Positions 10,740-45,490 of a stretch of 64,000 nt of DNA are shown piece by piece; the stretch's first letter is position 1, and every line of letters starts with the position of its first letter. The position numbers and the translations under genes were made by a program. The notes under the pieces were generated by a model. That model saw only the letters and a list, made by a program, of their open reading frames with translations, ran no database searches and was not told the DNA's origin. The stretch comes from Candidatus Rifleibacteriota bacterium (GTDB taxonomy: Bacteria; Riflebacteria; Ozemobacteria; Ozemobacterales; Ozemobacteraceae). The stretch spans positions 1 through 64,000 of the forward strand of contig JAKQOH010000097.1 in NCBI GenBank assembly GCA_029565415.1, given 5' to 3'.

Positions 10740-11030
10740 ACGCACCACCGAGATACTCCGTTGAACTACCCCTCGGATTTAAGAACGCATCCGCAGATGG
10801 AGGGCAGATGACGCAGATGTCGTATTTCCTGTATGAGTCGAAAACGCCATGGTTGAAGACGCTCAGGCACAGAGACACAGAGCAAGAAGAATTTTCTCGC
10901 TGTGACTGCTATGGAGAGGACCGAGTCCTCAGATGCATGTTGAAAGTGAACCCAGACATTCGTTTCTCGCTGTATCATCTGCGACATCTGTGTCATCTGT
11001 GGATTCCGTCTTCCCTCTCGTTTCCCTCTC
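10740..11030. repeat. Interspersed repeat unit of CGCATCCGCAGATGGA type
   Basis: Starts ACCGAGATACTCCGTTGAAC, then AAGAACGCATCCGCAGATGG, GTATTTCCTGTATGAGTCGA and CATGGTTGAAGACGCTCAGG. The last segments reappear in reverse complement at 60777-60826. A CATCTGCGACATCTGTGTCA half-site ends the unit at about 11000. It fills most of 10659-11083. Confidence 0.85.
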
Positions 11031-11042
11031 GAGGTGGCGGGG

Positions 11043-11071
11043 TTGCAATCCGGGGGCGGGCACGGTACAGT
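11043..11071 (+). promoter_or_regulatory. Sigma-70-like promoter for the lptF/G-argS operon
   Basis: TTGCAA (11043-11048), 17 bases, TACAGT (11066-11071). The predicted transcription start near 11078 would leave only about six bases before the ATG at 11084, so the first gene may be read from an almost leaderless mRNA; no Shine-Dalgarno motif is visible there. Confidence 0.5.
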
Positions 11072-11083
11072 GTGCCGCGACCC

Positions 11084-12178
11084 ATGTTCAAAACCATCGA
11101 CCGGTATATCCTTTCGGAGCTCCTGCAGCCGTTCCTGTTCGGAATGGCGTTTTTCGTCGCCATCTGGCTGATCGATCTGATGATGGAGCTGATCAATCTG
11201 ATCTTCTCCAAGGGAGTCCCTCTGTCCGTCGTTTTCCTGTTCTTCGTGTATAACCTGCCTCCGACCCTCGTGATCAGCTTTCCCATGGCCATCCTGCTGG
11301 GCACGCTCGTCGCGTTCGGCCGTCTCTCGTCGGATTCGGAAGTCATCGCAATGAAGGCGGGCGGGTACAGTTTTTCCCGCATCGCGGCCCCGGCCGTCGT
11401 ATCGGGGCTGGCGATCACGGCGATCACGTTCCTGTTCAACGAAAAGGTGGTGCCGGTCGCGAACGACAAGTTCAGCAAGCTGTTCCGGCGTGAGGTGACG
11501 CTGAAACGGCCGCTTCCGAAGATCGCGGCGAACCGGTTCTTCGAGGCCGGCCCCGGCCGCAAGTTTTTCGTGCGCGAGTTCAACAAGGACACGCGGGATA
11601 TGTTCGGGGTGATCATGTATGAAGGCCAGCCCAAGAACTACCCCCGCGTGATCGAGGCCTCGAAAGCCCGCATCGACGATGGCAAATGCGTCTTCTGGGA
11701 CGGCCGGATCTCGGACATCCGAAGCACCGGCGCCGATTACCATTACACCTACTTCGACACGCTCGATTACCCGATCGACACGCATTACGTGAACCCCGAC
11801 GACGTGCCCGACAACAAGGACCCACGCCGCATGAACATCGGCGAGCTCTACGGGTATATCCAGGAGATGCAAAAGAAGGGCCTGTCGGGCAAGGCCCTGA
11901 AGCAGAACTGGATCGAGTTCTGGACGAAAACCTCGATCCCGTTCGCGGCGCTGATCTTCGTCCTGCTCGGCGCCCCGCTCGGAACGCAGACCAGCCGGTC
12001 CGGCACCAGCATCGGCATCGGCATGTCGGTCGTCATCATTTTCCTGTACTACGTCTTCTTCGCCGCCGGAAAAGCGTTCGCGACCGGGGGCTACGTGTCG
12101 CCCTTCCTGGGCGTCTGGCTGCCGAACTTCATCATCGGCAGCATCGGCGTGTGGCTGATCATGCGCGCCAAAGCCTGA
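11084..12178 (+). CDS. LptF/LptG family lipopolysaccharide export permease
   Basis: A 364-residue YjgP/YjgQ-family permease. It starts MFKTIDRYILSELLQPFLFG, the classic first helix, with two more membrane segments by residue 110, a periplasmic beta-rich domain (about 120-250) and three C-terminal helices (IPFAALIFVLLGAPLG, GIGMSVVIIFLYYVFFAAG, FIIGSIGVWLIM). With LptB and LptC it extracts lipopolysaccharide from the inner membrane. LptF and LptG cannot be told apart here, and only one copy is present. Longer in-frame starts run into the repeat and are rejected. argS follows after 18 bases. Confidence 0.85.
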   Translation: MFKTIDRYILSELLQPFLFGMAFFVAIWLIDLMMELINLIFSKGVPLSVVFLFFVYNLPPTLVISFPMAILLGTLVAFGRLSSDSEVIAMKAGGYSFSRIAAPAVVSGLAITAITFLFNEKVVPVANDKFSKLFRREVTLKRPLPKIAANRFFEAGPGRKFFVREFNKDTRDMFGVIMYEGQPKNYPRVIEASKARIDDGKCVFWDGRISDIRSTGADYHYTYFDTLDYPIDTHYVNPDDVPDNKDPRRMNIGELYGYIQEMQKKGLSGKALKQNWIEFWTKTSIPFAALIFVLLGAPLGTQTSRSGTSIGIGMSVVIIFLYYVFFAAGKAFATGGYVSPFLGVWLPNFIIGSIGVWLIMRAKA

Positions 12179-12196
12179 ATCCACAGGAGACCGTCC

Positions 12197-13972
12197 GTGA
12201 AAAAACACCTGCTCGCCCTGATCTCGTCGAAACTGACGGAAACCGTGCACCGGTATGGCGTCGATCCGGCCGGCGTGTTCGAGCTCCAGACGCCGCCCGA
12301 CCGGACCAAGGGCGATTTCGCCCTGAACACGGCGATGCGGCTGGCCAAGCCCGCGAAGAAACGGCCCCTCGAGCTCGCCGAAGAGATCGCGGGAATCCTG
12401 CGCGCCGAGACCGCGTGGTTCGCCCGCGTCGAGGTCGCCCCGCCCGGCTTCGTGAACCTGTTCGTGAACACCCCGGTCATCAGCCGCATCCTGGACGAAA
12501 CCGCCCGCCGGGACGATCTCGGGTTGCGCCGCGAGGACAAGCCCCAGACCGTCGTCGTCGATTATTCCAGCGTAAATATAGCAAAGCAAATGCATGTCGG
12601 CCACCTGCGGTCGACGATCATCGGCGACGTGCTTTCGCGCGTGCTCGAAGCCCGCGGCGAGACCGTCATCCGGCAGAATCATCTCGGCGACTGGGGTCTG
12701 CCGATCGCCATGGTGCTGTGGAAGGCCTGCCCGGTACTGCGCGATCTGGAAGCGCGGGGCGTGGCCATCGAGTCCGAGCTGACCCTGGCGCGCCTCGAAG
12801 GTCTGTACCGCGAGGCGAGCGCCGCCTGCAAGGAAGATCCGGCCGCCGCTTCCGCCTGTCATGAGATTCTCGTGAAGCTCCAGAACGGGGATGCCGGCCT
12901 CGTCGCCGACTGGCACACCGTGACCCGCGTCTCGATGGCCGAGGTGTATCGCGTCTACGACGAGCTGCGCGTGAAGCTGGCTCCGGAGCACGAGCGGGGC
13001 GAGAGCTTCTACCGCGACCGGCTCGCGGCAACCGTCGAGGCCGTCCGCGGGCGCGGCAAGCTGGTCGAGTCGCAGGGCGCCCAGTGCGTGTTTCTCGAGC
13101 ATTTCAAGGCCAAGGACGGAAGCCCGCTGCCCGTCATCATCCAGAAGTCCGACGGGGGCTTCAACTACGAGACGTTCGATCTGGCCGCCATCCGGTACCG
13201 GGTCGAGGAGCTGGGGGCCGACCGCGTGATCTACGTCACCGATGCCCGCCAGGCCCTGCATTTCGCCCAGGTGTTCGACGTGGCGGCGGTGTGCGGCTGG
13301 ACCTCGCGGGCCGACGGAAGTGCCGTGAAGTTCGAGCACGTGCCGTTCGGCAGCGTTCTGGGCGAGGACAACAAGCCGCTCAAGACCCGCACCGGCGAAA
13401 ACGTCAAACTCTCGGATCTGCTCGCCGAGGCGGTCGAACGGGCCTACGCGGTGGTCTGCGAAAAGAACGCCGATCTGGCCGAGGAGACGAAGCGCCGCGT
13501 CGCGAAAGCCGTCGGGATCGGCGCGATCAAGTATGCCGACCTGAGCCAGAACCGGAACAACGATTATGTGTTCTCGTTCGACCGCATGCTGGCCCTGCAG
13601 GGCAACACCGCGCCGTATCTCCAGTATGCCCATGCGCGCATCTGCTCGATCTTCCGGAAAGGCGGCATCGCCGAATCCGAGGATCTGGGAAGCCCCGATC
13701 TCGTCGAGCCGGCCGAGCGGGCGCTCGGCGTGAAACTGCTCGAGTTCGCCGACGTCGTGACCTCGGTCGAATCGGAGCTGCGGCCCCACACGCTGTGCAC
13801 GTATCTGTACGATCTCGCCACGGCGTTTTCGGCCTTCTACGACCAGTGCCCCGTGCTGATCGCGGCGGATGCCGGCCAGCGCCGGGCCCGGCTTGCCCTC
13901 TGCCGCATCACGCGCCGCACGTTGGCGCTCGGCCTGGACCTTCTGGGAATCGAAGCACCGCAGGAGATGTGA
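12197..13972 (+). CDS. argS: Arginyl-tRNA synthetase
   Basis: A 591-residue class I synthetase. The N-terminal Arg-tRNA additional domain covers about 1-90. The HIGH motif reads HVGH at 133-136 within VDYSSVNIAKQMHVGHLRST. The catalytic domain continues with QNHLGDWG and VIYVTDARQALHFAQVF, and the anticodon-binding domain includes NNDYVFSFDRMLALQGNTAPYLQYAHAR. The KMSKS element is relaxed (KPLKTRTGE), as in many ArgRS enzymes. The start codon is GTG with CAGGAGA seven bases upstream. The codons spelling SVNIAKQM (12566-12594) are a strikingly AT-rich island. The TPR gene follows after three bases. Confidence 0.96.
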   Translation: MKKHLLALISSKLTETVHRYGVDPAGVFELQTPPDRTKGDFALNTAMRLAKPAKKRPLELAEEIAGILRAETAWFARVEVAPPGFVNLFVNTPVISRILDETARRDDLGLRREDKPQTVVVDYSSVNIAKQMHVGHLRSTIIGDVLSRVLEARGETVIRQNHLGDWGLPIAMVLWKACPVLRDLEARGVAIESELTLARLEGLYREASAACKEDPAAASACHEILVKLQNGDAGLVADWHTVTRVSMAEVYRVYDELRVKLAPEHERGESFYRDRLAATVEAVRGRGKLVESQGAQCVFLEHFKAKDGSPLPVIIQKSDGGFNYETFDLAAIRYRVEELGADRVIYVTDARQALHFAQVFDVAAVCGWTSRADGSAVKFEHVPFGSVLGEDNKPLKTRTGENVKLSDLLAEAVERAYAVVCEKNADLAEETKRRVAKAVGIGAIKYADLSQNRNNDYVFSFDRMLALQGNTAPYLQYAHARICSIFRKGGIAESEDLGSPDLVEPAERALGVKLLEFADVVTSVESELRPHTLCTYLYDLATAFSAFYDQCPVLIAADAGQRRARLALCRITRRTLALGLDLLGIEAPQEM

Positions 13973-17564: not shown

Positions 17565-18260
17565 ATGAACGCACCCCCGACAAACGGCGCACCGCCCTCC
17601 GCAGCAGGCCTTCTCATCACCTTTGAAGGCCCGGAAGGCAGCGGCAAGAGCACGCAGATCCGACACCTGGCCGCGTCTCTGGAATCGGCCGGCCGGAGCG
17701 TTCTCGTGACGCGCGAGCCGGGCGGGACGCCGGCCGGCGACCGGATGCGCGGCATCCTCCTCGACCGGACAGGCGACCGCCTGGAAGCCGAGACGGAGCT
17801 GTTCCTGATGCTCGCCCAGCGCACGGAGCACTGGCGCAAGGTGATCTGCCCGGCCAAAGCCGAGGGCCGGATCGTCCTGTGCGACCGGTATTTCGACAGC
17901 AGCCTGGCCTATCAGGGATTCGGCCGGGAACTGGGCCTCGACGTCGTCCGGCGGCTCCATCTCGAGTTTCTCGGCCCCGCGTTCCTGCCCGACCTGACGC
18001 TGTTGTTCGACCTGCCGCCCGAGCTGGGTCTCGAGCGCGTGCGCACGGCCGGCCGCGGAGCCCCGGATCGCATGGAATCCGAGATCATCGGGTTCCACAA
18101 GCGCGTCCGGGAAGGGTATCTGACGGCAGCCCGCGAAGAACCGCACCGATTCCGGATTCTTCAGGCCGACCGTGATGTCCGCGACGTTTCCCGGCAGATG
18201 GCCGAGGTTCTGAACGCCCGGTTCGGCTGGAACCTGGCGTCCGGGGGGTCTGCGGCATGA
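17565..18260 (+). CDS. tmk: Thymidylate kinase
   Basis: A 231-residue dTMP kinase. P-loop EGPEGSGKST (21-30), TREPGGTPAGDRMR with the DRX-type dTMP-binding region, the CDRYFDSSLAYQG motif and LFDLPPELGLERVRTAGR. It makes dTDP for DNA synthesis. It has a 15-residue N-terminal extension before the first strand, and the next gene overlaps its stop by ATGA. Confidence 0.95.
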   Translation: MNAPPTNGAPPSAAGLLITFEGPEGSGKSTQIRHLAASLESAGRSVLVTREPGGTPAGDRMRGILLDRTGDRLEAETELFLMLAQRTEHWRKVICPAKAEGRIVLCDRYFDSSLAYQGFGRELGLDVVRRLHLEFLGPAFLPDLTLLFDLPPELGLERVRTAGRGAPDRMESEIIGFHKRVREGYLTAAREEPHRFRILQADRDVRDVSRQMAEVLNARFGWNLASGGSAA

Positions 18261-20149
18261 GTTTCACGCTGAGATTCCTCGCCTGCCTGGTGTCGTTCTG
18301 GACAGCGGGCTGGCTGGTTTTCTCCGCGTTCGGCACCGTCATTCCGCTGATCCCCTATATAGCTATTGGGATAGCAACATCCCTGATCGTCGCCGTCGTC
18401 ATCCATCGTCGGATCACGATGCCGCTGCGCCGGTTCGTGGAGATCTCCGACAACATCGCGGATGGGGACGTGGACCAGGATCTCGGGACGGTCACGTTCG
18501 ACGCGGTCGAGGACGTTCACGAGGGCTTCTCGAAGATCGTCAGCACGCTGGTCGAGTCGCGGGGCGCCATCGAGCATTACATGCAGACGATCAGCGACAT
18601 GAACCGGGAACTCGCGCAGAAGGTCGATTCCCTGTCGGTGCTGTACTCGGCCAGCCGGTCGATGGGCACGTCGCTGAGCATCGACACTCTCGTGCGAACC
18701 CTGCTGACCCTGTTCATGGAGCGGATCGGCACGGCAGGCGCGGCGATCATGCTGTACAACGACCGCACCGACATGGTCACGGTCAAGGACCTGCTGGGCT
18801 TCCAGCCGGAGCTGTTCGCGAAGTACCGGTTCTACTCGGACAACAAGATCGTCACGACGCTGTTTTCGGAAGAGGAGTGCTGGGCCCCCGACGAGGCGGC
18901 CCGGACGCTGATGGCGGCCGAGTTCGAGACGGATGCCGTACGCTCGATCCGGCTGCTGTTCCCGATGCGCATCAAGGACCACTTCGTAGGCATCATCGTT
19001 CTCGGCGAGAAGCGGGACGAGTCGCCATATACGACGGCCGACCGGCAACTGATCCAGGCCGTAGCCGGCCTCGCCGGCACCTCGATCAACAACGCGGCCC
19101 TGTACGAGAAATCCGAGTCCACGAAAAACGAGCTGGACCGGAAGGTGTTCAACCTGATGGCGCTCCAGCAGGCGGGCAAGGTGCTCAGCTCGACCCTCAA
19201 CCTCGACGAGCTGATCAAGAGCTCGATCGACATGTTCCTCGAGACCGTCTGGTCGAACAAGGGCGTGCTGATGCTGTTCGCCGAGGACCGGCCCGAGCTC
19301 GAGGTGAAGGCGTTCAAGGGGCTGTCGGGCGAGGAGGTCGAGGCGCTGGCGATGGATCCGGCCGAGACGTGGGCGATGACGACGCTCGAAAAGGAGAAGA
19401 AGCCGATCCTGGCCCGCGAGCTCGCCTCGGCGTCGAATTTCCAGAGCTATACCACCGTGAACCGGCAGATCCCGTTCGCGGTCTATATCCCGCTTCTCAA
19501 GGAAGGCGAGATCTACGGCGTGATGAAGATCGGCCCCAAGATCAACGCCGAGCCGTTCACCGAAAACGATCTCGAGTTCTTCATCACCCTCGCCTCGCAG
19601 GCCGTCATCGCTTACGAAAACGCGCGCCTGTATTCGCTCGCCATCACCGACTCGATCACCAAGCTGTATGTGCACCGCTATTTCCAGCTCCGCCTCGACG
19701 AAGAGGTGAAGCGTAGCAGGCGCTATAACTCCACCCTTTCTCTGCTGCTGTGCGACATCGATCATTTCAAGCTGATCAACGACCAGTACGGTCACCAGCA
19801 GGGCGACATCATCCTGCGCGAGGTGAGCCAGATCCTGCGCCGCAACATCCGTTCGACGGACATCGCGGCCCGGTACGGCGGCGAGGAGTTCGTCATCATC
19901 CTGCCCGAGACGACCCAGTCGGATGCGCGCATCGTGGCCGAGCGGATCCGGCGCGACACCGCGAAATACGATTTCCCGGCGCTCGCCCCGGGCCAGCCGC
20001 CGTTGCACTGCACCATCTCGATCGGCGTGGCCGGCTTCCCGCTGAATGCCGACTCAAAGGACGAACTGATCCAGAAGGCAGACAGTTCGATGTATCAGGC
20101 GAAGGGCATGGGCCGCAACCGCGTGGTGCTGTGCGGCACGGACGCCTGA
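18257..20149 (+). CDS. Membrane-anchored GAF-GAF-GGDEF diguanylate cyclase
   Basis: A 630-residue protein: two membrane helices (about 5-50), a HAMP-like linker (RRITMPLRRFVEISDNIADGD), a first GAF-like domain (about 130-285), a second (about 310-465) and a C-terminal GGDEF domain with GGEEF at 541-545. The inhibitory I-site RSTD sits at 532-535, exactly five residues ahead, so product inhibition by c-di-GMP is likely. Codons at 18352-18387 in the second helix form an AT-rich island. It is coupled to tmk by ATGA. The GAF ligands are unknown. Confidence 0.92.
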   Translation: MSFTLRFLACLVSFWTAGWLVFSAFGTVIPLIPYIAIGIATSLIVAVVIHRRITMPLRRFVEISDNIADGDVDQDLGTVTFDAVEDVHEGFSKIVSTLVESRGAIEHYMQTISDMNRELAQKVDSLSVLYSASRSMGTSLSIDTLVRTLLTLFMERIGTAGAAIMLYNDRTDMVTVKDLLGFQPELFAKYRFYSDNKIVTTLFSEEECWAPDEAARTLMAAEFETDAVRSIRLLFPMRIKDHFVGIIVLGEKRDESPYTTADRQLIQAVAGLAGTSINNAALYEKSESTKNELDRKVFNLMALQQAGKVLSSTLNLDELIKSSIDMFLETVWSNKGVLMLFAEDRPELEVKAFKGLSGEEVEALAMDPAETWAMTTLEKEKKPILARELASASNFQSYTTVNRQIPFAVYIPLLKEGEIYGVMKIGPKINAEPFTENDLEFFITLASQAVIAYENARLYSLAITDSITKLYVHRYFQLRLDEEVKRSRRYNSTLSLLLCDIDHFKLINDQYGHQQGDIILREVSQILRRNIRSTDIAARYGGEEFVIILPETTQSDARIVAERIRRDTAKYDFPALAPGQPPLHCTISIGVAGFPLNADSKDELIQKADSSMYQAKGMGRNRVVLCGTDA

Positions 20150-33548: not shown

Positions 33549-33980
33549 ATGCAGTCCGTTCAGTGTCCGCTGTGTCACAACCAGATGTTTTCCGAGACGT
33601 TCCGGCCGGGCGAGCGGTTTCCCTGCCCGCACTGCGAACACGAGCTGCTCGTGGAGCCGTACGAAGACACGCCGACAGTCCGCCTGCCCGAAGAGATCAG
33701 TCTCCACATGAACTGGGCCAAAGGCATCTGGAAGGACGGGCGGCTGTTCATGACCCAGCAGAAGCTGGCCGTGCTCGGCGAGATGGTCGTGAACGCGCTT
33801 CAGCTCGACCGCTGGTCGGGCGAGAGGCCGGAGCAGCTCGCCGAGCGGCTCAAACAGGCAAAAGAAGCCGAGGAGCTCCTGCTCAAAAACGGGTACCGGC
33901 CCGACATGATCGCGTTTGGCCGCACTCTGCTCGACATCTTCATCAATCTCCGGGGGTCCGAAAACGGCTCGAAACGCTGA
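33549..33980 (+). CDS. Small zinc-ribbon protein
   Basis: A 143-residue protein. CPLCHNQM and CPHCEHEL (Cys 6, 9, 26, 29 approximately) form a zinc ribbon. The rest is helical, with a coiled segment (LAERLKQAKEAEELLLKN) and no membrane helix or signal. GGGAGGAG precedes the ATG, and a weak TTCTCG-N16-TACCAT promoter can be drawn at 33487-33514. A strong terminator follows, so it is monocistronic. Function unknown; zinc ribbons recur in this window (13976, 31870, 50000). Confidence 0.75.
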   Translation: MQSVQCPLCHNQMFSETFRPGERFPCPHCEHELLVEPYEDTPTVRLPEEISLHMNWAKGIWKDGRLFMTQQKLAVLGEMVVNALQLDRWSGERPEQLAERLKQAKEAEELLLKNGYRPDMIAFGRTLLDIFINLRGSENGSKR

Positions 33981-34052: not shown

Positions 34053-35906
34053 TTATTTTCCGCCCCCCTCCGGGGGTTTCGGGGCATCGGGTGCCCCGAC
34101 GGGCGGGAACGGCTGGGACGAGGGAGTGCCACCGCCGTTGGCAGGGCCGGCGGCCGGCGCGGCACTCTTCATGCCGGGCGGCTCGTTCCCTTCGGGGATG
34201 ATCGGGGGGAACGGCTGGGACGAAGGCGTGTTCCCGAAGGCCATCATCGGCGGGTAGGGCTGGCTCTCGAGCGGCACGCCCTGGACGAACCCGTGCGGCA
34301 ACTCCTCGATCTCGGTTTCATCCTGTTTGAGGATCATGTCGCCGGTGTCGCCGACCTTCTCGAAATACTGGAACAGCTTCTTCTCGAACGCCTTCAGGAA
34401 GGCCTCGACGCACATCGGGTCGAACTGCTTGCCCGAGAACTTCTTCAGCTCGGCCACGGCCGTGTTGAAACTCAGTCCCTTGCGGTATGGGCGGTTCGTG
34501 GTCATGGCGTCGAACGCGTCGGCCACGCAGATGATGCGCGCGATCAGCGGGATATCCTCGCCCTTGAGGTGATCGGGATAGCCGCGGCCGTCAAAATACT
34601 CGTGGTGATGCTTCACGCCCGGCACCTTGTCGGCCAGGAAGTCAACGGGCCGCAGGATCTTGGCGCCGATCTCGGGATGCTTCTTGATGATCGCATACTC
34701 CTCGTCGGTCAGCCGGGCAGGCTTGCGGATGATGCTGTCATTGATGCCGATCTTGCCCACATCGTGCAGCAGGCCGGCATACCGCACCGAATCGATCTCC
34801 TTGCGCTCCATGTTGATCTCTTCGGCGATCGCGACGGAGTACTGGGTCACGCGGCGGGAATGGCCCTGCGTGTAGGGGTCTTTCGCATCGATCGCGGTCG
34901 CGAGAACCTCGATCGTGGCGAGATACACCTTCTGGATGTTCTCGTACAGGCGGGCGTTGTCGATGGCCGAAACGGCCTGGTTACCGAGCGCCTCGAGAAT
35001 TTCGACGTCGTGATCGTTGAACGGGATGTCGCCGGTGCGGTTGAGAACCTGCAGAACGCCGATCACTTCATCTTTCAGCTTCATCGGCACGCAGATCATC
35101 GACCGGGTGACGAAGCCGGACTTTTTGTCGGCGCCCTTGAAGAATCGCGGGTCTTTCGCCGTGTCGGGCACGATGACGGGCTTGTTCTCCTTCGCGCACC
35201 AGCCGGCGAGGCCGGTACCCATCGGAAGGCGGATCTCTTGCAGCTTCGAACCGACGTTCGGATCGCCCTGCACGATGTGGAAATACAGTTCGTTGGTCTG
35301 CCGGTCGACCAGGTAGACGGTCGAGGTCTCGCACCGCATGACCTTCGTGGCCATGTGCATGATCTTGCGCAGCAGGTCGTTCAGGTCGAGGGTCGAGCTG
35401 ATCGCCTTGCCGACTTCGAGCAGCGTCGCCAGCTCGGCCATCTGCAGCCGGACCAGCTCGACTTCCATGAAGCGGCCGATCGCGTCGGCAGCGATTTCCC
35501 GGAACTCGTCGATGCCCGAAACCGTGACCCCCGTGGTGGAACCGGCGGGCAGGATCAGGGCCCCAAACGGCAGCAGCGCGTCGCCGATCGGGATGAAATA
35601 CCGGCGGGCGCCTTCCAGCGTCGAGACGATCTCGCTCGAGACGGGCAGATTGCCGAGCCGCGAAGCCGTGAATGTCTTGCAGTGGGTACCGAGGGAAGCC
35701 GTGTCGAAGCCTTCCGCGAAGCGCACGCGCGTCTGCTTGGCCCCGGCATCGTAGAAAAGCACGGCAAAGCCCGGCTGGCCGGACAGCTCGTGAGCCGCCC
35801 GGCTGAGGATGGTCAGCAGCGTATCGGAATCCTTGGCGCTCGCCAGAATATCGCGCTGGGTCTTGTACAGAACCTTCAGCGTGTCGCCGCTCAGAACATC
35901 AGCCAC
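34053..35906 (-). CDS. GAF and HD-GYP domain protein (c-di-GMP phosphodiesterase candidate)
   Basis: A 617-residue cytoplasmic protein. An N-terminal GAF-like region (about 15-150) is followed by a clear GAF domain (165-325; GKAISSTLDLNDLLRKIM, MGTGLAGWCAKENKPVIVPD) and an HD-GYP domain (about 335-520) with GHSRRVTQYS, LLHDVGKIGI and HHEYFDGRGYP, all catalytic motifs intact. HD-GYP proteins degrade c-di-GMP or related dinucleotides. The last 75 residues are Pro-rich with repeated SSQPFPP-type motifs. The start overlaps the adenylate cyclase stop by eight bases. Confidence 0.9.
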   Translation of the reverse strand: MADVLSGDTLKVLYKTQRDILASAKDSDTLLTILSRAAHELSGQPGFAVLFYDAGAKQTRVRFAEGFDTASLGTHCKTFTASRLGNLPVSSEIVSTLEGARRYFIPIGDALLPFGALILPAGSTTGVTVSGIDEFREIAADAIGRFMEVELVRLQMAELATLLEVGKAISSTLDLNDLLRKIMHMATKVMRCETSTVYLVDRQTNELYFHIVQGDPNVGSKLQEIRLPMGTGLAGWCAKENKPVIVPDTAKDPRFFKGADKKSGFVTRSMICVPMKLKDEVIGVLQVLNRTGDIPFNDHDVEILEALGNQAVSAIDNARLYENIQKVYLATIEVLATAIDAKDPYTQGHSRRVTQYSVAIAEEINMERKEIDSVRYAGLLHDVGKIGINDSIIRKPARLTDEEYAIIKKHPEIGAKILRPVDFLADKVPGVKHHHEYFDGRGYPDHLKGEDIPLIARIICVADAFDAMTTNRPYRKGLSFNTAVAELKKFSGKQFDPMCVEAFLKAFEKKLFQYFEKVGDTGDMILKQDETEIEELPHGFVQGVPLESQPYPPMMAFGNTPSSQPFPPIIPEGNEPPGMKSAAPAAGPANGGGTPSSQPFPPVGAPDAPKPPEGGGK

Positions 35907-37896
35907 CCGATTCGTTCTCCTTGAGGCCTGTCACCCGCCATGCATGCACGGGTTCGGTCTTGCCCTTCACAACAAGAGGTTCAAGGGGCTGAACCTCCAC
36001 CATGCCAGTAACCAGTTCATATGTCTTCGGACCGATCACGATCTCCTGACTGCCGGCCTTTCCCTGAAGCCGGCTGGCAAGATTCACCGTGTCGCCGATG
36101 ACGGTATATTCCATTCGCTCAGTCGAACCGACGTTGCCGAGAATGGCCGCTCCTGAATTGATACCGCAACTCACGGTGAAAGGGAAGATCCCTGATGGGA
36201 GATTTGCATTAATCTTCGAAATTTCCTGACGGATTTCGAGGGCGATGCGCACCATGGAAAGCGCGTGATCCTTGTCGGGAAGCGGCACTCCGGTGGTTAT
36301 CATCATCGCGTCCCCGATGAACTTGTCGAGACAGCCCCGATGTCGGTGGATGATCGGCACCAGCCGCGAGAAGTAATAATTGAGCTGAACGAGCACCCGC
36401 TCGGGGGAGTGCTGCTCGGAAAAACTGGTGAAGCCGCACACATCGATGAAGCAGACCGAGATCTCCTGCCGGGTGGGCTCGAGGGCGCTTTGCGGCGTTT
36501 CGATCAGCACGTCGACGACCTCGGGGGAAACCTGCTTGCCGAACGCCTCGCGGATCAGCGCTTTCTCGCGTCCCTCGAACAGGTAATCGAGCCAGGCCAG
36601 CACCGCAAGCGCCACGGGGAATCCCGCGACGACGACGCCCGTGCGCAGCCGCCAGCCCTGCAGAAACACCAGAAACGCCCCGCCTTCGACGGCGCACAGG
36701 CCCACGAGAGCGAGCAGGGCGCCCAGCCACGGCCGGGAGAGGGTCTGCGCGAACAGCATCCAGACACACAGCAGGCCCAGCAGCAGTGCGGGCAGCCAGG
36801 CCCGGCCTCCCTGATCGAGGCGGCCCATGAAGCCCCGCGGCCGGGTCATCGCATCGAGCATCGCCGCATGCAGCATGATGCCCGCCACGACCGGCCGGCC
36901 GGGAATGGAGATGGTGTCGCCCAGAAAATCGTCGCTGACGCCGATCAGAACCATCGAGCCTTTCAGCATCGCCTTCTGTTCGCCGGTCAGGTTCAGACGG
37001 CCGGAATACAGATCGTACAAATCCCGGAACGCGTAGACGGCCTCCGGATCGGCCTCCCAGCGCGGGGAAGCGGCGGCCGGAGCGTTCCAGACGCTCGCCG
37101 ATGCCGGCAGCAGCTCCTGCGGAAACCGCGTTCCGTCCTCCATGCACAGCTCCTCGCCGTCGAGAACCGGGGATTCGCGCATGCCGCGGGCGGCCATCCA
37201 GACGGCCAGCGCCAGGGAAGGCACCAGGCGGCCCTCATGCGGATAGGCAATCGGGGTTTTGCGGATCACGTCGCCCCGGTTGATGCCGCGCTCGTAGGTG
37301 ATGAGCCCGAGCCCTCGCGCGGCTTCCGTGAGCACGGGAACGGACGTGTGGAGAACCGTCTTTTCCCGTTGCAGGAAGGCATACCCTTCGTCTTCATCGT
37401 CATCTCCGGAGCCATCGGCGGCGACCGCCTGGCGCTTTTCGAGAGAGGCGGCCAGGATCACCGGCATGCTTGCCGATCGCATTGCGTCGGCGAGCTCGCG
37501 CTCGTCTTCGAGGCTGCCGGGGCCGAACACCATGTCGATGCCGACGGCCGCCACCCCGAGCTCCTGGAGCATCTTCAGACACCGGGCGTACACACGGCGC
37601 GGCAGGGGCCATGTCAGCCCCTCGGATTCGAAGAAGGTTCTGACCGTTTCGGGACCGATCGAGACGACCAGGACGCGGGAAGGGGCATCGGGAGCGAGCA
37701 GAGCGGTTTTCCAGCCTTCTCTGCGGGCGGGGTCTCGGGTCGTTTCGAGCCGGTGCCGGAGACTCCAGAACAGGTCTTCGATCCCGTTGTCGAACAGTTC
37801 GAAGGCGCCGTTCGAAGCGGCTGCCGCGAAGATCGCCCAGACGAGAAGTGCCGCTGCGGCCTTTCCCCAGATTGCGTACCGCCGTGCGCCGCCCAT
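35899..37896 (-). CDS. CHASE2 adenylate cyclase (class III)
   Basis: A 665-residue protein: an N-terminal helix (about 10-28), a periplasmic CHASE2 sensor (35-355), about three membrane helices (365-460) and a class III cyclase domain (478-655). Metal-binding Asp 485 (FIDVCGFT) and Asp 529 (IGDAMM), adenine-selecting Lys 525 and Asp 602 (TVIGDTVN), and Asn 605/Arg 609 for transition-state binding are present, so cAMP production is expected. A 290-bp longer N-terminus is rejected because it overlaps the YmdB-like gene. Its ATG lies two bases after the upstream stop. Confidence 0.92.
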   Translation of the reverse strand: MGGARRYAIWGKAAAALLVWAIFAAAASNGAFELFDNGIEDLFWSLRHRLETTRDPARREGWKTALLAPDAPSRVLVVSIGPETVRTFFESEGLTWPLPRRVYARCLKMLQELGVAAVGIDMVFGPGSLEDERELADAMRSASMPVILAASLEKRQAVAADGSGDDDEDEGYAFLQREKTVLHTSVPVLTEAARGLGLITYERGINRGDVIRKTPIAYPHEGRLVPSLALAVWMAARGMRESPVLDGEELCMEDGTRFPQELLPASASVWNAPAAASPRWEADPEAVYAFRDLYDLYSGRLNLTGEQKAMLKGSMVLIGVSDDFLGDTISIPGRPVVAGIMLHAAMLDAMTRPRGFMGRLDQGGRAWLPALLLGLLCVWMLFAQTLSRPWLGALLALVGLCAVEGGAFLVFLQGWRLRTGVVVAGFPVALAVLAWLDYLFEGREKALIREAFGKQVSPEVVDVLIETPQSALEPTRQEISVCFIDVCGFTSFSEQHSPERVLVQLNYYFSRLVPIIHRHRGCLDKFIGDAMMITTGVPLPDKDHALSMVRIALEIRQEISKINANLPSGIFPFTVSCGINSGAAILGNVGSTERMEYTVIGDTVNLASRLQGKAGSQEIVIGPKTYELVTGMVEVQPLEPLVVKGKTEPVHAWRVTGLKENESGG

Positions 37897-37898
37897 GT

Positions 37899-38678
37899 TC
37901 AGCCTCCGAAGCGCAGCCGCTCGATCGAGACCGCACGGCCGGCATCGTCGAGACGCAGCCGGATGGCGTCGATCAGAAGCCTGTCGGGGGGGAGGGCGGG
38001 AGCGCCCTGGAGGTGCGCCTGCCGCTGCCACCAGACATCGGGAGCAATGCCGGAGACGGATGATTCCCCGGCGGCGATGCCGACGTCGAGGACCGAAGCC
38101 CGGCCGGTCCGGATCACGGGGTGGCCCGCGATACAGCCCAGACCGGTTCCGACGAGATGGACCGGGCGGCTCAGGGATTGAACGCGCCACGCCATCGCCT
38201 GCTTGAGCTCGAGATCGGGGCCGCTGAACAGGAGCACCAGAGGCGCATGGTCGGTCAGGCCGGCTTCGAACGCCGCAAGCGTTTCCCAGGGCGGGTCGAC
38301 GGGCAGACGGTCATCTCCGGTCTCGAGAACGACGAGCCGGCAGGCGCCGGTCGGGGTTTCGAGCAGCAGGTCCGCATCGCCGGGGGTTCCGGGCGGCAGG
38401 TTCAGCGGGCGGATCACCCGCCGGAGCGTGCCGAGAACCTCGCGGGTGGCGGGGCGGGCAAGGGATTTCGCGTCCAGAACGACAACGTCGATTCCACTGT
38501 CAAAGAGCCGTTCGAGGTGGGCCGCAGGCCGGCCGCCGGACCCCAGGAGACGCGAGGCGTTGCAGACCACGGTCTCCGGCGCGTCTTCGCCGTCGCGAAC
38601 GGACGCCAGAAGGGCGCGCAGATCCGGCGCGGGAATCTCCCGGCTCATCTCACCCAGGACGAGCAAAGACAGCGTCAT
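37899..38678 (-). CDS. Degenerate YmdB-like metallophosphoesterase homolog
   Basis: A 259-residue protein of the length of YmdB (2',3'-cyclic nucleotide phosphodiesterase). The fold landmarks are visible: VIRPLNLPPGTPG where YmdB has RPANYPPGTPG, LDVGIAAGESSVSG where YmdB has TDVGM-GP--S-IG, and the terminal AGRAVSIERL. The metal ligands are gone: NGEN is CNAS, HAEATSEK is SGPDLELK and GTHTHV is GTGLGC. It is probably catalytically dead and may bind a nucleotide or partner. The family call is by eye only. It leads directly into the adenylate cyclase gene. Confidence 0.6.
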   Translation of the reverse strand: MTLSLLVLGEMSREIPAPDLRALLASVRDGEDAPETVVCNASRLLGSGGRPAAHLERLFDSGIDVVVLDAKSLARPATREVLGTLRRVIRPLNLPPGTPGDADLLLETPTGACRLVVLETGDDRLPVDPPWETLAAFEAGLTDHAPLVLLFSGPDLELKQAMAWRVQSLSRPVHLVGTGLGCIAGHPVIRTGRASVLDVGIAAGESSVSGIAPDVWWQRQAHLQGAPALPPDRLLIDAIRLRLDDAGRAVSIERLRFGG

Positions 38679-40269: not shown

Positions 40270-40406
40270 CGTGCGAGCTTCTCCGTCGGAAGAAAAAGAA
40301 TTCACCACTTCGTCTTTCGGCGTACAGAACCGAACACCGAAGTCCTTTCCCCGCGACGGATGAATTTTCGGATCCCGGTCGGGCATGTTTTTTTCGCGAC
40401 GCCGGC

Positions 40407-40436
40407 TTGCATCCGACGTTCCGGCGATTGTATGGT
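40407..40436 (+). promoter_or_regulatory. Candidate promoter of the sigma-54-type regulator
   Basis: TTGCAT (40407-40412), 18 bases, TATGGT (40431-40436), predicting a start near 40443 and only about eight bases of leader before the ATG at 40451. Confidence 0.4.
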
Positions 40437-40450
40437 GTCGGGTGCCTCAA

Positions 40451-42055
40451 ATGAAAACGCCCACCTCCCAGGTCCCGCTCCTGCCGATGCAGCCCGAACT
40501 CTTGCTGCTCCGGCGGGATTCCGGCTGGGTTGTGGGCCGCATCCCGGCCTGGCTCGCCGAGGATCTCGGCCGCCCGAAACCCTCGGAAACCGGCTTTGCA
40601 AGCGCCTCCTCCGACGACACCGACTGGCTGGAAACGGCGTTTCCCGGCGTGATCGAGCTCGCCGAGCAGGTCATGCAGACGGGAAATCCGGTTCGCGAGT
40701 TCCAGGCCCGCATCGTCGACCGGCACGACCAGCCTCATCAGATCCTCCTCGAGGCCAACCCCGAGACGCTGCCGAACGGCACGAAAGCCGTCGCGATCAG
40801 GCTCCAGGAACGGCCGGCACCGCCGGCGGAAGCGTCGGGCATCGATCTGCGCGAAGCCTCGTTCCACGGCCTCGTCGGGATCTCCGAGCCGATGCAGCGA
40901 GTGTTCAACAAGGTGCGGCTGTATGGGGCCTCGGATGCGCCGGTCCTGGTGATCGGCGAGACCGGCTCGGGCAAGGAGGGCATCGCCCGGGCGGTTCACC
41001 TCTCGAGCCGCCGCCACGAGAGCCCGTTCGTCACCCTCAACTGCAGCGCGATCACCGAGACCCTGTTCGAGAGTGAACTGTTCGGCCATGAAAAAGGCTC
41101 GTTCACCAGCGCCATCCGCTCCCACAAGGGTCGGTTCGAACGGGCCGACCGGGGGACGCTGTTCCTCGACGAGATCGGCGATCTGCCCCTCAGCTCCCAG
41201 GCGAAGCTGCTGCGCGTGCTCGAGGACCAGACGATCGAGCGCGTCGGCGGTGAAAAGCCCATCAAGGTCGACGTGCGACTCGTCGCCGCCACGAACGTCC
41301 AGCTCGAGGAGGCCGTCGCCGCGGGCCGGTTCCGGGCCGACCTGTATTATCGCATCAACGCGCTCCAGATCTACGTGCCGCCCCTGCGGGAGCGGGCCGA
41401 AGATCTCGAACTGCTGATCCGGCACTTCATCGCCATCCTCAACGAGAAATACGGCCGCCGGGTCGGCTGTCTGACCCGCGAAGCCATCCACCTGCTGAAA
41501 CAGTACCAGTGGCCCGGCAATGTCCGTGAACTGCGCAACCTGATGGAACGCCTGTTCGCCGAGACCCAGGGCGAGGTCATCGGCCTGCGCGCCCTGCGCG
41601 AATGGTATGACGAGCGGATGAACGCGGCCCGGTTCGCCCGGTATGATCCGCGCGTCACCATGCTGCCGTACCGCAGCGCCATCCCGCTCGGAACGCAGGT
41701 CGTCCCGCCCTCCGCCAGCACGCCGGCCGTCCAACGCCCCACAGAAACCCAGCAACAGCCACCCTTCGGCGTTCTCAGCGGGCCGCCCATCCCTCACGGA
41801 GCCGCCTTTCCCCAGACAACCGCCGCCGAACCTCCCGTTGAAGTGGTGGAAGTCCGTCGGATTCCGACATCCACGGGTTCTCCGTCCCGGCAAACCGGCA
41901 GCCGGATCGATCTCGATCCCGAGGCAATCCGCAGGGCGTTCGCCGAAACGGGCGGCAACATCACCCGCGCCGCGGCTATGCTCGGCGTCCACAAGGCGAC
42001 CCTCTACCGCCACCTCAAATCCCTGAACCTCTCCCGATCCGATCTCGAGCCCTGA
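40451..42055 (+). CDS. Sigma-54-type AAA+ transcriptional regulator with altered GAFTGA loop
   Basis: A 534-residue regulator. The N-terminus (15-125) is PAS-like. The AAA+ domain has Walker A GETGSGKE (169-176), Walker B GTLFLDE (235-241) and the usual downstream motifs (LLRVLEDQTIERVGG, LYYRINALQIYVPPLRER, WPGNVRELRN). The loop that contacts sigma-54 reads GSFTSA (216-221) in place of GAFTGA. A Pro-rich linker of about 80 residues precedes a Fis-type helix-turn-helix (GGNITRAAAMLGVHKATLYRHL). It is divergent from the barrel gene. A start at GTG 40442 is possible. Confidence 0.88.
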   Translation: MKTPTSQVPLLPMQPELLLLRRDSGWVVGRIPAWLAEDLGRPKPSETGFASASSDDTDWLETAFPGVIELAEQVMQTGNPVREFQARIVDRHDQPHQILLEANPETLPNGTKAVAIRLQERPAPPAEASGIDLREASFHGLVGISEPMQRVFNKVRLYGASDAPVLVIGETGSGKEGIARAVHLSSRRHESPFVTLNCSAITETLFESELFGHEKGSFTSAIRSHKGRFERADRGTLFLDEIGDLPLSSQAKLLRVLEDQTIERVGGEKPIKVDVRLVAATNVQLEEAVAAGRFRADLYYRINALQIYVPPLRERAEDLELLIRHFIAILNEKYGRRVGCLTREAIHLLKQYQWPGNVRELRNLMERLFAETQGEVIGLRALREWYDERMNAARFARYDPRVTMLPYRSAIPLGTQVVPPSASTPAVQRPTETQQQPPFGVLSGPPIPHGAAFPQTTAAEPPVEVVEVRRIPTSTGSPSRQTGSRIDLDPEAIRRAFAETGGNITRAAAMLGVHKATLYRHLKSLNLSRSDLEP

Positions 42056-43177: not shown

Positions 43178-45490
43178 TCAGGCCGTCGGTGCCGGGGCAT
43201 CGGCGGGCGGCTCCCCGTTTTCCTCGGCCGGGGCGGGCGGCTCGGTCACGTTCGAGACACCGACGCGGTTGCGGCCGGCATGTTTGGCTTCGTAGAGGGC
43301 CTCGTCGGCGATTTTCATCATCTCAACCGTCGTCTCGGCATAGTTGTAGGGCAGGGCGCTGAGACCGAGGCTGATCGTCACCCGCAGATCGCCCTTCGGC
43401 CCCTGGAAGATCGAGGACTCGACCTTCTGCCGCAGGCGCTCGGCGAACAGCCGGCCACCTTCGAGATCGGTTTCGGGAAGGATCACGCAGAACTCCTCGC
43501 CGCCATACCGGGCCGCCACGTCGGTGTCGCGGATGGTGGCCTGAACGATCTTCGCGACCTCGCGCAGCACCATGTCGCCGGTCTGATGGCCCCAGGTGTC
43601 ATTGAACTTCTTGAAATGATCTATATCGGTCATGATAAAAGAGAGCGGCTTCTCATAGCGTTTCGCCCGCCGGAACTCTTCCTCCATGCGCGACTGGAAA
43701 TGGCGGCGCACGATAAGCCCCGTCAGGCCGTCGATCGTGGCGAGGTTGAACAGCCGGGACTTCTCGATGACGACGGCGGCCTGGTTCGCCATGGTCAGGG
43801 CCATCTGGAGATCTTCATGATCGAAGGCGTCCGTCGTCTTGTTCACGATATTCATGACGCCGATCGATGTATCCCGCACCAGCAGAGGCACACACAGGAT
43901 CGAGCGCACGACGCCGGGGCTGCCATCCATATGCTCGAATTTTTTATCGATGCGCACATCGATGATCAGGCGCGGCTCACCTTTCGCGAACACTTCGCCG
44001 GCGACTCCTTCGCCGACCTTGAACTTCTCTTTGAGAGCCGGGTTCACCGATGCGGCACCCTCGACGCCAACCACGACCGCCGCTTCGACGAGGCTCTCGT
44101 ACCGTTCGTCGAGCATGAACAGCGAGCCGCGTTCGGCACCCAGGACCTGCACGCATTTGGCGAGAATCGTGTCCAGGGTCCGGTTCAGATCCCCCATGAA
44201 GTTCACGGCGTGTATGACTTCGTTGACCATCGAAAGTTCGCGGACCTTTCGTGCGAGTTCCCGGTTCCGCTGCCGGAGATCGCGGAGCTGCTGTCCGAGC
44301 CGCATCAGGGCCCACTGGACCGGCCCGAGGAACAGGAACGGAACCGTCTCGAGCACCAGATCCCATCGGAAGACGGCCACGGCGGCCAGCGGCCAGGCCA
44401 GCCACAGCGCCAGAATCGCGAGGTTGCCGGCCGTGCTGCCGGTACGCCAGATGATCCAGGCCAGCAGCAGCGCGACGCCGAGCAGCAGCACGCAGGTCCA
44501 GGGCGGCGGCATGCGCCGCAGGATCCTGCCGCTGACGATGTTGTGGACGAGATTCGCATGGATTTCCATGCCGGAAATCGCTCCATACGGGGAAAACTTC
44601 ACGTCCTCGGACGTGCCCTTGGCGCGCGTCCCGACGATCACGGCCTTGCCCCGCATCAGCCCGCTCTGGAACCGGCCTTCGAGCACCTCGTGGTAGGCGA
44701 CGTCGTCGAAATAGCCCGTCTTTCCGCCGTAGTTGAGCATCAGCGAGCTGATCGGCACCCCGGGGCGGGATCGTTCCCGTCGGGTATAGAAACCGAGCAG
44801 CCGATCGCCGATTTTCATCCCCTCCGGGATCGATTCGATGACCACATCGAGCAGGCTGGCCGCGATGACAAGGCCGAAACACCGGTAGGTCTCGTCGCCG
44901 AGTCTCTTTTCGAGGAACAGGTGGCGCATGACGCCGTCGGTGTTCGTGTCCACGTGCTCCATGTCGATGAAGCCCTCGGAAGCGACGGGGGCACGCAGCG
45001 CCGGGATAGGCCGGTCCGCCACGAGCCGCTCGATCATCTCGCACGACTCGTTGTCGAGCACCGTCTTTTTCACCATCACGAGGGGCAGCACGACGCGGCC
45101 GAACGAGGCGACGGCACGCGCGAACACGGCATCGTCTTCCGGCCCGGCCAGCGACGGCTCGCTGAACATGACGTCGAACGCCGCGACCCGCGCCCCCGCC
45201 GAGGCGAGCACGTCGAGCAGCCGGGCATGCATGGCCCGGGGCCATGGCCAGGGGCCGAGCTTCGCGATGCACTCGTCGGTGATCGAGACCAGTACGACAT
45301 TCCGGCTCGCGGGCAGTTCCCCGCGGGAGCGGAACCGGAGGTCGATGCTGCCGTTCTCGAGATCGGTAAAGTATCCGTTATAGAACAACAGGACGGAAAG
45401 CAGGCCGAACACGAGGCCCGCCAGCGCCTCGGCGCTCGTGAAGAACCGGCCCCGTCCCCGGAACGACGCGCTCAGATCAGTCATGTCCAC
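43178..45490 (-). CDS. CHASE2-GAF-GGDEF diguanylate cyclase
   Basis: A 770-residue protein: a first helix (about 22-40), a periplasmic CHASE2 domain (45-320, with VLVSITDECIAKLGPWPWPR and AFDVMFSEPS), three membrane helices (330-400), a short coiled coil, a GAF domain (about 430-590) and a GGDEF domain with GGEEF at 663-667. The I-site RDTD is at 654-657, so product inhibition is expected. The tail is Pro/Ala/Glu-rich. It shares the CHASE2 sensor type with the adenylate cyclase at 35899-37896, so the two may sense related signals through different messengers. Confidence 0.93.
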   Translation of the reverse strand: MDMTDLSASFRGRGRFFTSAEALAGLVFGLLSVLLFYNGYFTDLENGSIDLRFRSRGELPASRNVVLVSITDECIAKLGPWPWPRAMHARLLDVLASAGARVAAFDVMFSEPSLAGPEDDAVFARAVASFGRVVLPLVMVKKTVLDNESCEMIERLVADRPIPALRAPVASEGFIDMEHVDTNTDGVMRHLFLEKRLGDETYRCFGLVIAASLLDVVIESIPEGMKIGDRLLGFYTRRERSRPGVPISSLMLNYGGKTGYFDDVAYHEVLEGRFQSGLMRGKAVIVGTRAKGTSEDVKFSPYGAISGMEIHANLVHNIVSGRILRRMPPPWTCVLLLGVALLLAWIIWRTGSTAGNLAILALWLAWPLAAVAVFRWDLVLETVPFLFLGPVQWALMRLGQQLRDLRQRNRELARKVRELSMVNEVIHAVNFMGDLNRTLDTILAKCVQVLGAERGSLFMLDERYESLVEAAVVVGVEGAASVNPALKEKFKVGEGVAGEVFAKGEPRLIIDVRIDKKFEHMDGSPGVVRSILCVPLLVRDTSIGVMNIVNKTTDAFDHEDLQMALTMANQAAVVIEKSRLFNLATIDGLTGLIVRRHFQSRMEEEFRRAKRYEKPLSFIMTDIDHFKKFNDTWGHQTGDMVLREVAKIVQATIRDTDVAARYGGEEFCVILPETDLEGGRLFAERLRQKVESSIFQGPKGDLRVTISLGLSALPYNYAETTVEMMKIADEALYEAKHAGRNRVGVSNVTEPPAPAEENGEPPADAPAPTA

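Follow-up and report, generated by a model that had tools for sequence, protein, structure and literature searches.

A YmdB-like protein with a fully replaced metal site is encoded beside a GAF/HD-GYP phosphodiesterase-type protein in Riflebacteria

What is the role of a YmdB-like protein that has lost its metal ligands and is encoded directly ahead of a nucleotide cyclase and an HD-GYP protein? The locus that raises this question lies in a stretch of 64,000 nucleotides from a Candidatus Rifleibacteriota bacterium, here called the window, and comprises the following features.

34053-35906, minus strand: GAF/HD-GYP phosphodiesterase-type protein, 617 aa, GTG start (Pfam GAF, HD_5)
34056-34270, minus strand: Pro-rich C-terminal tail of the above protein, SQP[YF]PP repeated three times
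35899-37896, minus strand: CHASE2 class III nucleotide cyclase, 665 aa (CHASE2, Guanylate_cyc)
37899-38678, minus strand: YmdB-like protein (pseudo-YmdB), 259 aa (PF13277)
38752 to about 40269, minus strand: probable outer-membrane beta-barrel protein, upstream of pseudo-YmdB
40385-42055, plus strand: sigma-54-type AAA+ activator with HTH_8, divergent
43178-45490, minus strand: CHASE2-GAF-GGDEF protein, diguanylate cyclase type

The first-pass annotation had described three back-to-back genes, and the coordinates (all on the minus strand) and Pfam domains agree with this description. The YmdB-like and cyclase genes are separated by a 2-base gap and the cyclase and HD-GYP genes overlap by 8 bases, with longer starts being possible for the YmdB-like and cyclase frames. 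The Pfam matches had E values of 4.5e-14 (PF13277), 6.9e-27 (CHASE2), 1.6e-27 (Guanylate_cyc), 1.2e-22 (GAF) and 5.9e-38 (HD_5). Synteny between the window and L001 (Candidatus Ozemobacteraceae) extends across many genes. A 143-aa zinc-ribbon-like protein is encoded convergently with the HD-GYP gene (33549-33980, plus strand), with relatives at the equivalent place in L001, L003, L077 and L078, and besides the CHASE2-GAF-GGDEF protein (43178-45490, minus strand), the window carries a second GGDEF protein of GAF-GGDEF type (18257-20149, plus strand). A 1007-aa open frame at 10766-13789 (minus strand) is without any Pfam family, and none of the five downstream frames tried between 23359 and 29655 matched one.

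The 259-residue protein had been proposed to be related to YmdB, and this was supported both by its PF13277 match (52.8 bits, above the curated cut-off of 27) and by a confident structure prediction, according to which pseudo-YmdB has the YmdB fold. Its score for the TIGR00282 equivalog was 27.7 bits, below the cut-off of 254.15. The proposed loss of metal ligands was found to be complete. At D8, E39, N40, N67, H68, H150, H175 and H177 (B. subtilis numbering), which we take to be the dinuclear metal ligands of YmdB, the window protein has E, S, R, A, K, S, G and G, respectively; that is, 8/8 positions are replaced. Among the aligned pseudo-YmdB rows, H175 was changed to G in 27/27, H177 to G in 24/27, N67 to E in 17/27 and H68 to Q in 17/27. 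The replacements at the former metal site are not random, being position-specific and conserved inside family subgroups, with E-Q versus A-K between the subgroups. In a Spirochaetales MAG, another YmdB-family protein (P0158) has E, E, G, E, K, H, H and K at the ligand positions; judged from these residues, its metal site was probably lost independently.

A family profile search, covering the 7999 candidates with the most words in common, yielded at least 34 proteins at an E value of 8e-50 or better, followed by a drop to 3e-16. The two organism-named members of the 34, P0011 and P0006, carry the names Riflebacteria and Ozemobacteraceae; P0011 is identical to L003 and was excluded from the ligand alignment and the second YmdB tree. 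A new, family-specific PxxWW signature (P213-x-x-W216-W217 in the window) was present in 29/34 database members and in 22/22 pseudo-YmdB rows of alignment A6, from which L078, L081, L084, L087 and L094 were left out. Purifying selection acts on pseudo-YmdB, with dN/dS values of 0.10-0.31 in 6 pairs, and its frame is open at 23/23 loci. The window and L001 share 63% identity in pseudo-YmdB and 85% in the neighbouring HD-GYP protein, revealing pseudo-YmdB to be the faster-evolving of the two.

All ligands were kept in free or fused YmdB at 30/30 loci that were read without a motif filter. The 21 free and three of the fused YmdB rows of the ligand alignment and first tree were pre-picked by YmdB motifs, and their kept ligands are partly built in. 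A free YmdB (279-309 bits) is encoded as a separate gene in 22/23 pseudo-YmdB genomes; it is absent from G026, perhaps through genome incompleteness. One extra weak YmdB match each, below the cut-off, was seen in G018 and G023.

For gene order, 39 genomes of the phylum were searched, and six relatives (L001-L006) were taken from the genome collection. A clear pseudo-YmdB (E value of 1e-30 or better) was detected in 22/39 genomes, and a very degenerate one in G012, recognised by its position and a weak match, brings the count to 23/39. The latter copy (L094:7207-7998, minus strand) is too degenerate for Pfam, yet lies directly upstream of the HD-GYP gene. At 23/23 loci, pseudo-YmdB is followed on the same strand by the same GAF/HD-GYP gene, either directly or with only the cyclase between. 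G007, with two contig-end fragments that are 52% and 57% like the window HD-GYP protein, was counted as neither split nor fused. The gene order expected in relatives was thus conserved for pseudo-YmdB and HD-GYP (23/23), while the cyclase lies between them in 3/23; its absence from that place in 20/23 relatives does not support an invariable three-gene cassette. Since the cyclase is optional at the 23 loci and intact YmdB is fused to the orthologous HD-GYP protein elsewhere (see below), the constant partner of pseudo-YmdB is the HD-GYP protein and not the cyclase.

Aligned with 6fht, the cyclase keeps two Asp, the Lys, the Asn and the Arg positions, which we take to be the two metal Asp and the active-site residues, and contains FIDVCGFT, DKFIGD and TVIGDTVNLASRL; judging from these motifs, it may be catalytically active. 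The joining of cAMP synthesis to c-di-GMP-type hydrolysis, as proposed by the first-pass annotation, stands as far as catalytic motifs in the cyclase and HD-GYP proteins are concerned, but the cyclase is optional. Besides the window, it lies between the pseudo-YmdB and HD-GYP genes in L002, L003 and L082 (3/23 relatives). Two-frame cyclase matches were located at L002:1223-3132 and L003:10956-12927, in two different MAGs. The reading frame of these matches changes near residue 240 of the window protein, reflecting either an assembly error or a true break, and these changes further argue for the cyclase being optional; in L082, it is one open frame. At the locus of the closest fetched relative (L001, genome G001), the cyclase is absent, and no ortholog was seen elsewhere in G001, where the best match was 46% over the catalytic part only. 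The best cyclase matches reached 408-473 bits in G002, G003 and G013 and 198 bits in the next best genome. On the HD-GYP tree, where L001, the nearest row to the window, is without the cyclase, cyclase presence required four changes, of which starred branches forced three; its clustering was no greater than with shuffled labels. As a conserved partner of pseudo-YmdB, the cyclase is ruled out by the gene order in relatives.

In 6/39 genomes (G008, G009, G010 and G037-G039), YmdB is encoded ahead of GAF-like, GAF and HD-GYP parts in one frame, five of these frames being open and that of G010 having one stop inside the YmdB part. The family profile detected no pseudo-YmdB in the six genomes, and their only other YmdB matches were free YmdBs in G008-G010 (332-340 bits). 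Eleven YmdB-HD-GYP fusions were contained among 96 protein-database matches of the YmdB part, two of which (P0038 and P0039) are named Candidatus Wallbacteria. The fused YmdB keeps the 8 ligands in 14/14 aligned rows. For the window HD-GYP protein, the best match was the fused protein in 6/6 fusion genomes (53-58% identity, 414-462 bits), with the next best matches in those genomes at 49% or less and 373 bits or less. Many YmdB matches in the range P0049-P0133 carry further domains, mostly of FolD type (PF00763/PF02882), and in P0132, YmdB is joined to RNase Y-type domains.

In an HD-GYP tree of 58 rows, not including L081, the split proteins (22 rows) were grouped with a support of 100 and the fused ones (12 rows) with a support of 97; split, fused and L131 together were set apart from 22 others with a support of 97. 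By these sequence comparisons, the fused HD-GYP half is orthologous to the unfused HD-GYP protein of the window. In the YmdB tree, pseudo-YmdB (28 rows) and fused YmdB (14 rows) each formed one group with a support of 100. A second YmdB tree, computed after dropping 13 of its 71 rows, placed pseudo-YmdB firmly with neither fused nor free YmdB: support was 16, and a grouping of pseudo-YmdB with free YmdB was not rejected (p-AU 0.354). We do not propose a single origin of fusion and split, as the YmdB trees do not settle it and the HD-GYP tree gives the kinship of the two HD-GYP groups only.

The window HD-GYP protein, aligned with 4mcw, which we take to be PmGH, keeps the HD, HHExxDGxGYP and downstream Asp motifs and has a Tyr where 4mcw has a Glu, presumably the ligand of the third metal. 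The kept motifs suggest that it is catalytically active in c-di-GMP-type hydrolysis. Its N-terminus contains an extra degenerate GAF-like part. A low-complexity tail with QP[YF]PP was found in 22/22 unfused relatives as well as in the window and in 0/11 fused proteins; the window has three copies and the unfused relatives have one to four, with S or T mostly before the motif. L005, whose contig ends within its HD-GYP gene, was left out of this count and of the HD-GYP trees, and the contig of L092 ends after one complete repeat. In a scan of 7 genomes with a degenerate DNA pattern, the HD-GYP gene was the sole site with at least two matches within a few hundred bases in 7/7, while total pattern counts were near those of a reversed-pattern control. 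In the literature searched, confined to partial records, SQPYPP did not occur and QPYPP appeared in three papers, under groundnut, gluten peptide and Theileria titles. We know of no reader of this motif. We read the tail as a putative multivalent docking motif of the unfused HD-GYP protein; the confinement of the tail to one clade may go back to a single evolutionary event.

The YmdB-like gene had also been taken to lead the unit. A same-strand barrel-like gene lies 73 bases before pseudo-YmdB and has a relative upstream on the same strand at 15/23 related loci; hence, pseudo-YmdB is probably not the first gene of the unit. In this count, the contig of L002 stops at that place, and the sequence ahead of pseudo-YmdB in L082 and L087 is only 1.2-1.5 kb long. 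In L094, the barrel-like gene is inverted. The window protein has a signal-peptide-like N-terminus, about 20 long strands and a terminal Phe, but its model is of low confidence (pLDDT 50.8); its start was set at an internal ATG, with the longest frame beginning at 40386. The pseudo-YmdB/HD-GYP unit is presumably co-transcribed. Relatives of the sigma-54-type activator and of the CHASE2-GAF-GGDEF protein are nearby at 9/23 and 7/23 related loci, respectively. No sigma-54 (-24/-12) promoter match was found before the window barrel gene, the two matches in the window lying elsewhere, with 3.0 expected. For 14/15 upstream regions, including that of the window, the best sigma-54 site was equalled by more than 5% of shuffles (L081 at 0.03). 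In view of these negative searches, we make no claim that the divergent activator controls the unit. Flagellar genes lie near the pseudo-YmdB/HD-GYP pair in L092 (flagellin and FliW, L092:3686-7321) and in L094 (FlgM and FlgN, L094:12032-12924); being seen in two related loci out of a scanned subset, they are only suggestive.

Pseudoenzymes that partner active relatives are familiar, as are HD-GYP proteins that carry sensory parts. Our preferred reading, which we consider an even call, is that pseudo-YmdB is a catalytically dead YmdB serving the neighbouring GAF/HD-GYP protein, a phosphodiesterase of c-di-GMP type, as a dedicated subunit for regulation or docking. It would most likely bind the HD-GYP protein, either at the degenerate GAF-like part of its N-terminus or at the QP[YF]PP repeats of its tail, and a ligand or partner in the remodelled YmdB pocket would change HD-GYP activity or location. 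The upstream outer-membrane barrel might supply an envelope-derived input, which in some lineages could come from the CHASE2 cyclase. Such binding is putative, as are the function of the tail, the ligand and the direction in which regulation would run. The conserved adjacency and the fusions in relatives suggest that, for the HD-GYP enzyme, the dead protein turned into a helper or regulator. Against this subunit role, one and the same clade is marked by the tail, by split genes and by lost catalysis, so that a single event may account for their correlation; the YmdB tree does not place pseudo-YmdB nearer to fused than to free YmdB, a constant neighbourhood can also reflect shared regulation without contact, pseudo-YmdB is the faster-evolving protein, and the L094 copy is extremely degenerate. 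The faster evolution would suit a scaffold for another protein, tied to the HD-GYP gene by co-expression alone, with the HD-GYP protein using its tail for a different partner. This is doubtful but carries some weight, given that we are aware of nothing that reads the tail and that a barrel gene lies upstream at 15/23 loci, whereas adjacency at 23/23 loci and the fusion of YmdB to the orthologous HD-GYP protein elsewhere speak against it. In a bolder and unlikely version of the subunit role, YmdB was captured by HD-GYP, giving a two-enzyme fusion in one lineage and, in the other, a separate dead subunit that reads the multivalent QP[YF]PP tail with its remodelled pocket and switches c-di-GMP hydrolysis; if true, second-messenger modules under pseudoenzyme control would gain a new example, and the YmdB family would be tied to c-di-GMP control.

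The conserved, position-specific replacements within subgroups could also be expected if pseudo-YmdB had remained an enzyme, or sensed a ligand on its own, through a metal-free site rebuilt from a Gly-rich loop (GTGxG) and the E-Q pair. We regard this as quite improbable, as the ligands of the fold's known chemistry are gone and the difference between subgroups (E-Q versus A-K) fits a lost catalytic demand. Slightly fainter still is the prospect of a cyclic-nucleotide sensor or brake on the neighbouring cyclase that couples cAMP to HD-GYP output. The brake had been the initial proposal, and the 2-base gap in the window, the cyclase motifs and the same order in L002, L003 and L082 are in its favour; it gave way to HD-GYP as the constant partner. 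A cyclase missing between the genes in 20/23 relatives makes it less likely than the HD-GYP subunit, and the frame change in two of three carriers, the four changes on the HD-GYP tree and G001 being without an ortholog elsewhere weigh in the same direction. Ligand loss and the one extreme copy in L094 might indicate a decaying relic without function, which is hardly credible for a protein with an open frame at 23/23 loci, dN/dS of 0.10-0.31, a confident fold and invariant residues of its own.

The YmdB/TIGR00282 phosphodiesterases of known structure (B. subtilis YmdB 4b2o, TTHA0625 2cv9, Deinococcus 1t70 and M. pneumoniae 1t71) differ from pseudo-YmdB in that the ligands are lost only in the latter. 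In an excerpt of PMC6123443, B. subtilis YmdB and its enzymatic activity are described as needed for the biofilm/motility switch, and the physiological substrate of YmdB as unknown. CHASE2 class III adenylate cyclases of Sinorhizobium meliloti, as far as an excerpt of PMC13001267 describes them, share the CHASE2 and cyclase domains with the window protein, which, unlike them, is encoded between pseudo-YmdB and HD-GYP genes and in a minority of lineages. Neither a YmdB-derived pseudoenzyme beside HD-GYP nor an intact YmdB fused to it was described in the titles and abstract parts searched, most subscription papers being outside their scope; YmdB and HD-GYP occur together in one paper of that literature, once each. 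The window HD-GYP protein and 4mcw have GAF and HD-GYP in common over 352 residues (E value of 2.3e-66); the extra GAF-like part, the repeat tail, the Tyr for Glu and the pseudo-YmdB neighbour set the window protein apart. At the genomic level, the fusions and the dead paralogue kept next to this HD-GYP enzyme hint at cooperation between YmdB-type proteins and c-di-GMP-type hydrolysis, and the pseudo-YmdB/HD-GYP pair is a concrete, cheap test case for a pseudoenzyme regulator. The YmdB-GAF-like-GAF-HD-GYP fusions have the same module order as the window pair and an orthologous HD-GYP half, but are one polypeptide with intact ligands and no QP[YF]PP tail.
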